Shown: one piece after another, positions 23,707-45,338 of the stretch
Layout of the letters: every line of letters begins with the position of its first letter
How positions within the stretch are numbered: position 1 is the stretch's first letter
Source of the DNA: Nitrospirota bacterium
GTDB taxonomy: Bacteria; Nitrospirota; JACRHJ01
Direction of reading: 5' to 3'
Length of the DNA stretch: 64,000 nt
NCBI GenBank assembly: GCA_016212105.1
Contig: JACRHJ010000006.1
Location: 1 to 64,000, forward strand
The notes under the pieces: model-generated
Databases searched by the model: none
What the model saw: only the letters and a program-made list of their open reading frames with translations
Told to the model about the DNA's origin: nothing
Translations under genes and position numbers: made by a program

Positions 23707-23823
23707 TCAGTCTATCTTCTTCATCGGCTTGCCGCAGCAGACCAGTCCGCCGCCGCCCGCCTTCGTGACCAGGACTTCGTTGCCGCATACGTCGCATAAG
23801 TAATGCTTTCCGAGATCAGCCAT
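23707..23823 (-). CDS. Desulforedoxin-like small iron protein
   Basis: This 38-aa ORF is too short for the ORF track. It reads MADLGKHYLCDVCGNEV and ends GLVCCGKPMKKID. The CDVCG...CCGKPM pattern (Cys-X2-Cys, then Cys-Cys) is that of desulforedoxin and of the N-terminal FeS4 domain of desulfoferrodoxin. It would bind one iron per chain as a homodimer. AGGAGG lies 6 nt before the ATG. It lies downstream of a rubredoxin gene in the oxygen-defence cluster, so an electron-carrier role is likely. There is no superoxide reductase catalytic domain attached. Confidence 0.85.
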   Translation of the reverse strand: MADLGKHYLCDVCGNEVLVTKAGGGGLVCCGKPMKKID

Positions 23824-23925
23824 GATTTCCTCCTGTTGATATTGTGCGCCGGTGGCGCGGTCATGTTTTCCGCCTCTATGCAATCCCCTATCCTCGCGGG
23901 AGAGGGGCTGGGGTGAGGGGTCTCC

Positions 23926-24057
23926 TTACCTAACCTTCTCGAACTCTTCCTTCCCGGCGAAGCAGACCGGGCACTTCCAGACGTCCGGCAGGTCCGCGAA
24001 CGGGGTGCCCTCTACCGCCTCGTCATACTCGTAGCCGCATACCGTGCATTTGTACAT
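23926..24057 (-). CDS. Rubredoxin
   Basis: A 43-aa ORF missing from the track. It reads [17 protein letters not shown], then [18 protein letters not shown]. The two knuckles CTVCG and CPVC supply the four cysteine ligands of one iron. Rubredoxin is the usual electron donor to flavodiiron proteins, and the flavodiiron gene lies 185 bp upstream on the same strand. AAAGGAG precedes the ATG. It is slightly shorter than the 52-aa clostridial forms, as in some deltaproteobacteria. Confidence 0.93.
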
Positions 24058-24107
24058 GTTGTGTGAATCTCCTTTCTATTAACGATATCGTCGTGCAATA
24101 TTTCCAG

Positions 24108-24232
24108 GAAGGGCCGACACGCGGGTCGGCCCCTACATAAAAGCAGGTCCCTCGGCTTCGCTCGGGACGACACGAAATATGTAACCTGTCGAAAGTTCTT
24201 GGGCCGCCTTCTTACAAGAAGGCGGGACTTTC
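24108..24232. repeat. GGGCCGACACGCGGGTCGGCCC palindrome and short-form hairpin
   Basis: Two repeats separate the flavodiiron and rubredoxin genes: AGGGCCGACACGCGGGTCGGCCCCTACATAAAA (about 24113-24142) and the short-form element AAGTTCTTGGGCCGCC-TTCTTACAAGAA-GGCGGGACTTT (about 24192-24232). The hairpins might act as attenuators. Confidence 0.75.
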
Positions 24233-24242
24233 GCCCTTGACG

Positions 24243-25457
24243 CTAAAACTTCGCGTGGTATTCCCTGAGCCTGACCGCGAACTCGCGGCCGAAGTTGTAG
24301 CAGGCAAGCTCGTCTTCGTGGGACGGCTTGTAGTTCACCTGCACGCCCGGCTCGAAGACCTCGAGGCCCATCTTCTTGAACTCGTCGTAGGCCTCCCTTA
24401 CAGCGCCCCCGCCCCAGCCGTAGCTGCCGAACGCGCCGACCATCCTGTTCTTTGGCCGGAGTCCCCTCAGGTGAGTCAGGAACTCGGCCACCGTCGGGTA
24501 CAGGATGTTGTTCAGCGTGGGCGAGCCGATGAGGCAGCCGCGCGCCTTCCAGAACTCCTTTATCGCCGCGCTCATCGGCGTTGCCCGGAGCTTTATGACC
24601 TTGCAGTCGAGCCCCTCGTCCTTGACGCCCTGCATGATGGCGAGCGCCATGTTGGCGGTGGACTTCCACATCGTGTCGTAGATGATGGGCACGGAAAGTT
24701 CGGCCGCGCCGTTTGCCAGGTCTAAGTACTTCTGCACGACCTTCTTCGAGTGGCTCCGCCAGATGATGCCGTGGTCCGGGGCTATCATGTCTATGTCGAG
24801 CCCGAGCCTGCCGACCTCGGCCAGCTTGTTCTTTATGATTGGCCCGAACGGCATCAGGATGTTCGCGTAGTAGTCGAGGACCGCGTCGTCCAGCTCGGAT
24901 ACGGACTGGCATGTCACGAACTCGTCGTCGAACCGGGAGGCCGAGGCTATGTGCTGGCCGAATCCGTCCTGCGAGATGAGGAGCTTCTTCTCCTGGACGT
25001 AGGTCATCATCGAGTCCGGCCAGTGGAGCATCGGGGTTTCGAGGAATGTCAGCGTGTGGTGGCCGGTGGACAGAGTGTCGCCTGTCTTGACCACGTTAAT
25101 CTTCCATTTGGAGGTGTCGAAGAACCTCTCCAGCCCCTTCCTGCCCTTCTCGGTGATGTAGATCGTCGCGTCCGGCGCGAGCGCCATGATACGGTCGAGC
25201 CCGGTGACGTGGTCGTCCTCTATATGGTTTACTACCATGTTCTTTATCTTGGACGGGTCCACCAAGCCCTTGATGCTCTTAATGGAGACGTCCACGAAGT
25301 CGAACTTGACGGTGTCCACGAGGGTTATGTCGTCGTCAATTATCAGGTAGTTGTTGTAGGTCGTGCCGCGCGGGGTCTCGTAGCCGTGGAAGTCCCTCAC
25401 CGCCCAGTCCACGGCGCCTACCCAGAAGATGTTCTCTTTTATCTCGACGGACATCAT
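24243..25457 (-). CDS. FprA-type flavodiiron protein (O2/NO reductase)
   Basis: This cytoplasmic enzyme reduces oxygen to water, or NO to N2O, with electrons from rubredoxin. The N-terminal metallo-beta-lactamase domain carries all diiron ligands: His78, Glu80, Asp82 and His83 in NHIEDDH, His in MLHWPDSM, Asp in SQDGFGQH, and His in APDHGIIW. The C-terminal flavodoxin domain begins PIIYDTMWKSTANMA and contains GSYGWGGG. At 404 aa it is the basic two-domain class A form, with no fused rubredoxin; separate rubredoxins are nearby. AAGGAGG precedes the ATG. It is upstream of, and probably linked with, the rubredoxin and desulforedoxin-like genes. Confidence 0.95.
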   Translation of the reverse strand: MMSVEIKENIFWVGAVDWAVRDFHGYETPRGTTYNNYLIIDDDITLVDTVKFDFVDVSIKSIKGLVDPSKIKNMVVNHIEDDHVTGLDRIMALAPDATIYITEKGRKGLERFFDTSKWKINVVKTGDTLSTGHHTLTFLETPMLHWPDSMMTYVQEKKLLISQDGFGQHIASASRFDDEFVTCQSVSELDDAVLDYYANILMPFGPIIKNKLAEVGRLGLDIDMIAPDHGIIWRSHSKKVVQKYLDLANGAAELSVPIIYDTMWKSTANMALAIMQGVKDEGLDCKVIKLRATPMSAAIKEFWKARGCLIGSPTLNNILYPTVAEFLTHLRGLRPKNRMVGAFGSYGWGGGAVREAYDEFKKMGLEVFEPGVQVNYKPSHEDELACYNFGREFAVRLREYHAKF

Positions 25458-25490: not shown

Positions 25491-25518
25491 AGTATACCGC
25501 GTAATTAAATCCACGCAA
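25491..25518 (-). promoter_or_regulatory. Possible promoter of the flavodiiron gene
   Basis: On the minus strand TTGCGT and TATACT are separated by 16 bp, ending about 34 bp before the flavodiiron start. The -10 matches consensus at five of six bases; the -35 is weak. Confidence 0.35.
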
Positions 25519-25529
25519 GTCCTGCAAGG

Positions 25530-25622
25530 ATGTCATTCTGAGCGTAGCGAAGAATCCACGGTTGACTTTGGATGTAAAGAAAAGTCAAAGGTGGGTCCTT
25601 CGGCTTCGCTCAGGACGACAAG
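25530..25622. repeat. CATTCTGAGCGTAGCGAAGAATCC-type repeat
   Basis: GTCATTCTGAGCGTAGCGAAGAATCC and GGTCCTTCGGCTTCGCTCAGGACGACA are related inverted elements facing each other. The family recurs at 49.1 and 50.7 kb. No gene is visible. Confidence 0.6.
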
Positions 25623-25645
25623 CGATAACCTATTTCATCCTGATG

Positions 25646-26221
25646 TTACAGCCTTCCCTCGGCCGAGGCCCAGTCTATGTTCCTGAAGAACGCGCCGATA
25701 TAGTCCGCGCGCTTGATGCCGTAGTCCGTCATGTATGCGTGCTCGAAGACGTCCATGATGAGGAGCGGACGGCAGCCGGCCGGGTGGGCGGTGTCGTGCT
25801 CGTTGATCCAGAAGTTGACAAGCCTGCCGTCGGAGGAGTCCTCGTACAGCACCACCCAGCCGATGCCGCGCATCGCGCCGGTCGCGCGGAAGTCCTTCTC
25901 CCAGGCCTCGACGCTTCCGAACGAGGCCGCCATCTTCTTTGCCAGCTTGCCACCCGCGTCCAGCTTCCCGTCGCCGCCCAGGTTCCCGAAGTAAAGCTCG
26001 TGGAGGCGCATCCCGTTCCACTCCCAGCCGAGCCGGCGCTTCATCTCCGCGTACTCGTAGGCCGAGGCCTTGTCGTCCGCGAGCATCTGCGCGAGGGTGT
26101 TCAGCACCTTGTTGGTGTTGGTCACATAGCCCTGGTACAGGGTGAAGTGGTTCTTCAGAAGCGTCTCGGAAAAGCCTTCCATGCCGATGAGCTTGCTGTA
26201 ATCCTTGGCAGCGTAATCCAT
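25646..26221 (-). CDS. sodB: Fe/Mn superoxide dismutase family protein
   Basis: It probably dismutes superoxide in the cytoplasm. All four metal ligands are visible: His25 (KNHFTLYQGYV), His74 (MRLHELYF), Asp157 and His161 (IMDVFEHAY). The sequence diverges from classical enzymes: it lacks the usual N-terminal YALEPHI start and the second His of HHKHH. It belongs to the shorter anaerobe-type subgroup, which looks Fe-dependent. The gene lies 11 bp after a rubredoxin-domain gene in an operon read from the Fur-boxed promoter at 27.0 kb. Reduced electron-carrier partners nearby fit an oxidative stress role. The symbol is by family only. Confidence 0.87.
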   Translation of the reverse strand: MDYAAKDYSKLIGMEGFSETLLKNHFTLYQGYVTNTNKVLNTLAQMLADDKASAYEYAEMKRRLGWEWNGMRLHELYFGNLGGDGKLDAGGKLAKKMAASFGSVEAWEKDFRATGAMRGIGWVVLYEDSSDGRLVNFWINEHDTAHPAGCRPLLIMDVFEHAYMTDYGIKRADYIGAFFRNIDWASAEGRL

Positions 26222-26712: not shown

Positions 26713-26783
26713 GAAGCCTCCTGTAATTATACCGGAATATCCGGATTTTGTAAGAAATAATTCGCCACGCAAACGGCGGGCCG

Positions 26784-26961: not shown

Positions 26962-27007
26962 TGATAGTAATTATCCCGATTATAGTATTGGAAGCGTTAC
27001 TTGTCAA
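26962..27007 (-). promoter_or_regulatory. Consensus sigma70 promoter overlapped by a Fur/PerR-type box
   Basis: On the minus strand TTGACA (27007-27002), a 17-bp spacer and TATAAT (26984-26979) match consensus at all twelve bases. TGATAGTAATTATCC at 26962-26976 matches the Fur 7-1-7 consensus TGATAATnATTATCA at 12 of 14 positions and covers the expected start of transcription. The arrangement suits simple repression of the SOD operon by the Fur-family protein encoded divergently. Confidence 0.75.
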
Positions 27008-27018
27008 GAAGAATTCCA

Positions 27019-27046
27019 TTGACATAGACTGAAACGTATGTTAATC
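27019..27046 (+). promoter_or_regulatory. Probable promoter of the Fur-family gene
   Basis: TTGACA (27019-27024), a 16-bp spacer and TTAATC (27041-27046) precede the ribosome site GAGGTG. The -35 is perfect, the -10 poor. The Fur-like box lies about 43 bp upstream. Confidence 0.45.
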
Positions 27047-27067
27047 TTACGCAATGAGGTGATGATT

Positions 27068-27472
27068 ATGGAAAAGAAGATAAAGATGACCCCGCAGAGG
27101 GCCGCTATAATGGAGTACCTCGATGGCAACATGTCCCACCCGTCCGCGGACGAGATATATACCGAGGTACACAAGATGTACCCGATGATGTCGTTTGCTA
27201 CGGTATACAACACGCTGGACGCGCTCAAGAAGCAGAACATGGTCTGGGAGCTGTCCGTAGACGGCGACAGGCGGCGGTACGACCCCAGGACAGAGCCGCA
27301 CGACCACCTGGTCTGCGTGGACTGCCGCAGCATCAAGGACATAGGACACAACGGCCACAAATGCCCGTCCGGCGACGAGCTGAAGGGTTACATGATACTG
27401 AGGGAGCACGTCGAGTACTTCGGGCTGTGCCCCAAATGCCAGAGGAAGAGGGGCATGGGCGGGGACGGCTGA
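27068..27472 (+). CDS. Fur-family regulator (PerR-like)
   Basis: 134 aa from the ATG at 27068, placed 8 nt after GAGGTG. The N-terminal winged helix reads MTPQRAAIMEYLDG, then SHPSADEIYTEV and MSFATVYNTLDALKK. The C-terminal dimer domain carries PHDHLVCVDCRS and GLCPKCQRKR, the two Cys-X2-Cys pairs of the structural zinc site. The regulatory metal ligands look like those of PerR-type peroxide sensors, and its divergent neighbours are oxidative defence genes, so PerR is more likely than Fur. Iron-uptake control cannot be excluded. A close paralogue sits at 44.9 kb. Confidence 0.88.
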   Translation: MEKKIKMTPQRAAIMEYLDGNMSHPSADEIYTEVHKMYPMMSFATVYNTLDALKKQNMVWELSVDGDRRRYDPRTEPHDHLVCVDCRSIKDIGHNGHKCPSGDELKGYMILREHVEYFGLCPKCQRKRGMGGDG

Positions 27473-44945: not shown

Positions 44946-45338
44946 TCAACCGTTCTTGGCGCAGTCCGGGCAGAGGCCGTAGAACTCGACGTGCTTGCCG
45001 GTTATCATGAAGCCCTGGGCTATATCCGCCGGGACGGTCAGGTCGAAATCCTTGAAGATGTCCACTACCGCGCGGCATTTCTCGCAGATGAGGTGGTGGT
45101 GGAGCTTGGTGTTCGGGTCGTAGCGTTTCCTCTGGTCGTCTATGTTCAGCTCCCAGAGCATGCCCTTCGCCTTCAACGCCTCGAGCGTGTTGTAGACGGT
45201 GGCGAAAGACATCATCGGGTACTTCTTCTGGATGGCCGAGTATATGTCCTCGGCCGAAGGGTGGGAGGTGTTGCCGTCCAGGTATTCGAGGATGGCTGCC
45301 CTCTGCGGTGTCATCTTGAAAACTGTCTTGCCTTCCAT
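44946..45338 (-). CDS. Fur-family regulator (second PerR-like paralogue)
   Basis: 130 aa from the ATG at 45338, which sits 4 nt after GGAGGG. The winged helix reads MTPQRAAILEYLDG, then SHPSAEDIY and MSFATVYNTLEALKA. The dimer domain carries KLHHHLICEKC and GLCPDC, the two Cys pairs of the structural zinc. It is closely similar to the regulator at 27.1 kb (same TPQRAAI and YPMMSFATVYNTL stretches), so the two are paralogues. Its neighbours are the cbb3 operon (downstream) and a glycerate kinase gene, so oxygen or peroxide control of respiration is plausible. Confidence 0.88.
   Translation of the reverse strand: MEGKTVFKMTPQRAAILEYLDGNTSHPSAEDIYSAIQKKYPMMSFATVYNTLEALKAKGMLWELNIDDQRKRYDPNTKLHHHLICEKCRAVVDIFKDFDLTVPADIAQGFMITGKHVEFYGLCPDCAKNG

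Follow-up and report, generated by a model that had tools for sequence, protein, structure and literature searches.

An uncultured Nitrospirota genome carries a gene string for the detoxification of oxygen and reactive oxygen species behind a full-consensus sigma-70 promoter, with a Fur-family-type box over the expected transcription start and a divergent gene for a PerR-type regulator. The locus lies in a 64-kb window, meaning the whole stretch of DNA that was analysed (table 1). That a PerR-type protein acts at the box, here called O1, is in our estimate slightly better than an even prospect. A repressible strong promoter in front of such an operon would be an ordinary kind of stress switch, a view to which we give the same narrow preference.

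Table 1. Features of the operon, its control region and the two PerR-type genes, in window coordinates.
Feature	Position	Strand	Remark
-35 hexamer TTGACA, operon promoter	27002..27007	(-)	read from sequence
-10 hexamer TATAAT, operon promoter	26979..26984	(-)	17-nt spacer from -35; read from sequence
Candidate operator O1, GGATAATTACTATCA	26962..26976	(-)	12/14 to TGATAATNATTATCA; expected over +1
Zinc-ribbon protein, 52 aa	26784..26942	(-)	operon's first gene; orthologues in place in relatives
Weak terminator-like hairpin	26763..26778	(-)	behind zinc-ribbon gene; consensus match only
Second promoter-like site CTTACA-N17-TATAAT	26726..26754	(-)	10/12; in zinc ribbon/fusion gap; consensus match only
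Rubredoxin fusion, 160 aa	26233..26715	(-)	conserved unnamed N-terminal domain (CGCT...CC) and C-terminal rubredoxin
Fe/Mn superoxide dismutase (SOD)	25646..26221	(-)
Flavodiiron protein (FprA/Roo type)	24243..25457	(-)
Rubredoxin	23926..24057	(-)
Desulforedoxin-like (desulfoferrodoxin N-terminal domain)	23707..23826	(-)
Weak PerR-type candidate O2, CAAGAAGAATTCCAT	27005..27019	(+)	5.4 bits; P 0.06 in shuffles, not significant alone
-35 TTGACA, perR1 promoter	27019..27024	(+)	read by eye
-10 TAATCT, perR1 promoter	about 27042-27047	(+)	poor; read by eye
PerR1, Fur-family protein	27068..27472	(+)	PerR-type sensing residues; divergent from operon
PerR2	44946..45338	(-)	slowly evolving PerR1 paralogue
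PerR box TGAGAATGTTTCTAA	45371..45385	(-)	over -10 region of perR2 promoter

The operon promoter and the O1 box

In minus-strand order the control region reads TTGACA AGTAACGCTTCCAATAC TATAAT CG GGATAATTACTATCA AATCCAAGGGAGGCACACA ATG, with GGGAGG between the box and the start codon of the zinc-ribbon gene (ATG, 26942). The initial annotation had described a minus-strand TTGACA-N17-TATAAT agreeing with consensus at 12 of 12 positions, and the sequence bears this out (27007-26979; consensus taken as TTGACA, 16-18 nt, TATAAT). It is the sole TTGACA-N15-19-TATAAT in the window, and 100 dinucleotide shuffles of the window produced none. Pattern searches of the 3.05-Mb genome returned 16 perfect promoters with spacers of 16-18 nt, this one included, and no instance of the reversed pattern. 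The evidence supports a real and strong promoter. The expected transcription start, some 7 nt past the -10 and thus near 26972, would fall inside O1.

O1 begins 2 nt past the -10. The annotated match to the Fur 7-1-7 consensus, 12 of 14 positions immediately below the -10, was recovered (26976-26962), and no other site in the window matches TGATAATNATTATCA as well. In shuffles of the 125-bp intergenic region, which preserve base composition only, 12/14 was reached with P = 0.003, this being one of five consensuses tried. A genome scan for the same box, suggested in the annotation, located 10 places within two mismatches; matches within one mismatch are mostly intragenic. The best match near any of the other 15 perfect promoters (-60 to +90) is 9/14, which makes a chance origin of O1 unlikely. 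The sequence data thus support a non-chance box, placed where a repressor would block initiation.

Its type is a separate matter. The description 'Fur-type box' holds by the E. coli/B. subtilis consensus but fits the operators of the lineage poorly. A palindromic Gibbs search of 47 relatives' perR upstream regions gave the PerR operator TTAGAATNATTCTAA, and the same search of 17 fur promoters of the phylum gave the Fur operator TGAAAATNATTTTCA; both matrices are small. The PerR matrix gives O1 a score of -7.9 bits; the Fur matrix gives it 2.0 bits (rank 97 in the window). It starts 31 nt from the -35, and the common registers in relatives' perR promoters are 4, 22-23 and 37-39 nt. It therefore neither fits TTAGAATNATTCTAA nor occupies a common register, and it agrees with the textbook Fur consensus but not with the box of the phylum's own fur promoters. 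Given these scores, both 'PerR box' and 'Fur box' were rejected as plain labels. Nor was the G/C at position two of the half-site accepted as a reason to exclude PerR, since TGATAAT-type halves occur in the genome's rubrerythrin promoter and in seven of the 47 perR promoters. With this poor fit to both lineage operators, any of the genome's four Fur-family proteins may be the reader of O1.

The best PerR-type site of the intergenic region is O2, which spans the gap between the back-to-back -35 hexamers of the two divergent promoters.

The gene string

The annotation spoke of a zinc ribbon-rubredoxin-SOD operon. The genes are as named, but they are only the front of a six-gene string that contains an internal promoter-like site and a hairpin. 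The internal site, which precedes the fusion gene, may split the operon, and the genes past the zinc ribbon may not depend on the perfect promoter alone. The gaps flanking the flavodiiron gene (188 and 185 bp) contain two types of dispersed repeat, 'GAGCGAAGC' and 'GGGCCGACACNCGGGTCGGCCC', found at 25500-25640 and 24105-24180 and also elsewhere in the window. These repeats may cut the operon or form hairpins.

The N-terminal 110 or so residues of the fusion protein form a conserved domain with CGCT...CC and an invariant W and Y in the window and 26 relatives (alignment A1). Searches of Pfam and NCBIfam gave no match to this domain. AlphaFold models the protein as predominantly beta (pLDDT 85); a fold search of the PDB matched the rubredoxin part only.

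Fur-family regulators

The divergent gene had been annotated as Fur-family. Family and orientation stand; judged by its ligands, the protein is PerR-type, not Fur. The Fur-family fold is evident (Pfam FUR, 8.6e-27), and the best NCBIfam match is PerR, at a score under its equivalog cut-off. Ligands H24, D72, H78, H80 and D91 and the Cys pairs 83/86 and 121/124 are invariant in PerR1 and 14 relatives. This is the PerR set of His, Asp, His, His and Asp with a structural Cys4; the last ligand is Asp, not Glu, and Glu occupies that position in the Fur of this genome.

Four Fur-family proteins are encoded in the genome: Fur, C14, PerR1 and PerR2. The fur gene lies on contig C57 in front of feoB and has its own box, TGACAACGGTTATCA. 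PerR1 and PerR2 pair in the tree (94/48), within a clade that also contains the sister genus (98/80), and the branch of PerR1 is ten times longer than that of PerR2 (1.65 vs 0.16). On this phylogeny, PerR1 is a copy of PerR2 specific to the lineage, on a long branch. Within-lineage duplication fits the DNA, which is still 74% alike over 246 nt between perR1 (27083-27328) and perR2 (45072-45317). The two stretches are inverted and lie 18 kb apart.

In the alignment the recognition helix reads VYN in PerR1 and PerR2, and VYR in Fur and C14; we take this position to be the residue of the Asn-to-Arg switch described for PerR. That change is reported to switch PerR to the Fur box (PMC8638967). Together with VYR it favours Fur or C14 at O1, but the TGATAAT halves present in perR promoters keep this argument from being strong.

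The cluster and its operators in relatives

Complete or almost complete copies of the fusion protein occur in 27 genomes of the phylum, and the relatives are 49-73% identical. Most of the named relatives are Nitrospirota MAGs. Two others, L156 and L160, bear the label Thermoleophilia (Actinomycetota) and carry a fusion gene 63% identical, by horizontal transfer or in mis-binned contigs. With gene calls made mechanically, perR adjoins zinc-ribbon, rubredoxin-fusion, SOD or flavodiiron genes at 20 of the 26 loci examined. The usual order is perR first, on the same strand, then a cysteine-rich protein, the zinc ribbon and the fusion protein, followed by varying sets of SOD, flavodiiron, rubredoxin or desulforedoxin-like genes; unlike this arrangement, the regulator here is divergent. 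A perR-cluster link throughout the phylum is supported by these gene neighbourhoods, and the linkage and the conserved PerR ligands together make PerR control of the cluster well supported. On the short contig of L074 no perR was detected, and a PerR box lies in a TTGACA promoter 655 nt upstream of the cluster. A conserved protein of about 145 residues (MCxDHxMxCKC...), with no Pfam match, is encoded between perR and the zinc ribbon in several relatives (L086:3503-3940, L075:3676-4113 and others); the window cluster showed no such gene. In the sister genus, within the same family, fprA adjoins a tRNA gene, apart from any such cluster. The SOD of that genus is only 41% identical, and on both counts the genus offers no footprint partner.

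An exact TTGACA is present in 46 of the 47 relatives' perR upstream regions, where 2.1 would be expected. Counted from the first base of the -35, the best PerR box mostly begins at a distance of 4, 22-23 or 37-39 nt, that is, in the spacer, over the -10 or in the position 37-39 nt away. In this group, then, strong promoters overlapped by a PerR box are the rule. Boxes of the TGATAAT type matching at 12-13 of 14 positions occur in seven of the 47 promoters (0.18 expected from shuffles, largest 2). In the window genome itself, a PerR-like box, TGATAATAATTCTAA, lies over the -10 of a TTGACA promoter of the rubrerythrin gene (C25:41769-41783, L113), in the same register as the perR2 box. At C10:41706-41720 (L037), TGATAATCAATATCT lies between the hexamers of TTGACA-N17-CATAAT; the gene behind it encodes a 161-residue protein that has no Pfam match and resembles its preceding gene. 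Judged by sequence, this gene could be the regulon's second member.

Proposed mechanism and alternative readings

From the promoter, the box, the gene identities, the intact PerR ligands and the perR linkage we infer a scheme for binding, repression, inducer, acting paralogue and transcript extent. (i) A metal-loaded PerR-type repressor, the divergent PerR1 and possibly PerR2 with overlapping function, would bind O1 over +1. (ii) The dimer at +1 would exclude RNA polymerase. (iii) Peroxide would oxidize the metal-site histidines, and the repressor would leave. (iv) The freed near-consensus promoter would fire the zinc-ribbon, rubredoxin-fusion and SOD genes. (v) The transcript might reach the flavodiiron, rubredoxin and desulforedoxin-like genes. 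The tight repression and sharp induction proposed in the initial annotation would be consequences of such an arrangement. PerR action at O1 is favoured by the non-chance promoter and box, the invariant PerR ligands, the linkage to perR, the L074 box, the recurrent TTGACA/PerR-box design, the TGATAAT-type boxes among perR promoters and the rubrerythrin box. The score of O1 with the PerR matrix, its uncommon register and the long branch of PerR1 speak against it. A more specific version is improbable: PerR1, a fast-diverging duplicate of PerR2 with a private operator (of the GGATAATTACTATCA type vs TTAGAATNATTCTAA), would insulate the SOD/flavodiiron operon from the PerR2/rubrerythrin circuit of the same cell. 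If true, this would be natural operator drift between PerR paralogues with an unchanged recognition-helix core.

The strongest competitor, itself improbable, is that O1 arose by chance in AT-rich sequence and that the promoter is constitutive or controlled through O2. No lineage-specific matrix fits O1, O2 is symmetric over both -35 hexamers, and in Desulfovibrio gigas the rubredoxin/roo unit is reported to have a constitutive sigma-70 promoter (PMC545781). The rarity of 12/14 matches in 3 Mb and the weaker matches at the other perfect promoters argue against chance, and the shuffle test of O2 argues against control through that site. Less probable than this, and the least probable of the readings, is that true Fur or the fourth paralogue C14 reads O1, in which case the operon would answer mainly to iron supply and not directly to peroxide. 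The textbook match, the VYR helices and the Fur-type G/C where PerR boxes have T/A suggest such a reader. Against it, the phylum's Fur boxes read TGAAAATNATTTTCA and rank O1 low, the cluster is linked to perR and not to fur, and TGATAAT-type boxes occur in perR promoters too. A further alternative concerns the transcript and is compatible with PerR, Fur/C14 or chance at O1: the perfect promoter might mainly serve the zinc-ribbon gene, and the rubredoxin-fusion and SOD genes might run from the internal promoter. We consider this unlikely. The internal site (26754-26726), with the hairpin before it, suggests such a break, but both are consensus matches, the hairpin is short, and the zinc-ribbon and fusion genes stay same-strand neighbours in relatives.

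Comparison with known systems

The analysis extends PerR-linked control of flavodiiron, rubredoxin and SOD defence to uncultured Nitrospirota, and yields an operator matrix for the phylum: TTAGAATNATTCTAA, located within the spacer of promoters with a TTGACA -35. Since this one genome holds two PerR paralogues whose boxes differ, what sets the choice between PerR and Fur operators can be tested with small purified proteins and short pieces of DNA. A search of the literature on Nitrospirota PerR found nothing relevant.

In Geobacter, perR-rbr-roo operons with sites overlapping the -10 have been predicted, and the PerR motifs of delta-proteobacteria differ from that of B. subtilis and among themselves (Rodionov et al. 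2004, PMC545781). The locus described here is a PerR-linked system of this kind in another phylum, with a different gene order and box. As in Geobacter, a PerR-type gene lies beside flavodiiron (roo) and other oxygen-defence genes, and the operator overlaps the promoter core with a motif that departs from the B. subtilis PerR box and varies between lineages. Here, however, perR is divergent, the gene set takes in a zinc ribbon, a rubredoxin fusion and an SOD, the promoter agrees with consensus at all 12 positions, and the box follows closely after the -10. B. subtilis PerR, whose box is TTATAATNATTATAA, shares the metal and sensing ligands, the 7-1-7 layout and a site over the promoter. Position two of each O1 half, by contrast, is the Fur-type G/C, and the targets here are of anaerobe type (flavodiiron, rubredoxin). 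The Fur 7-1-7 box is matched by O1 at 12 of 14 positions, yet the Fur promoters of this genome and its relatives use TGA(A/C)AA-type boxes, and the context here is oxidative stress, not iron uptake.
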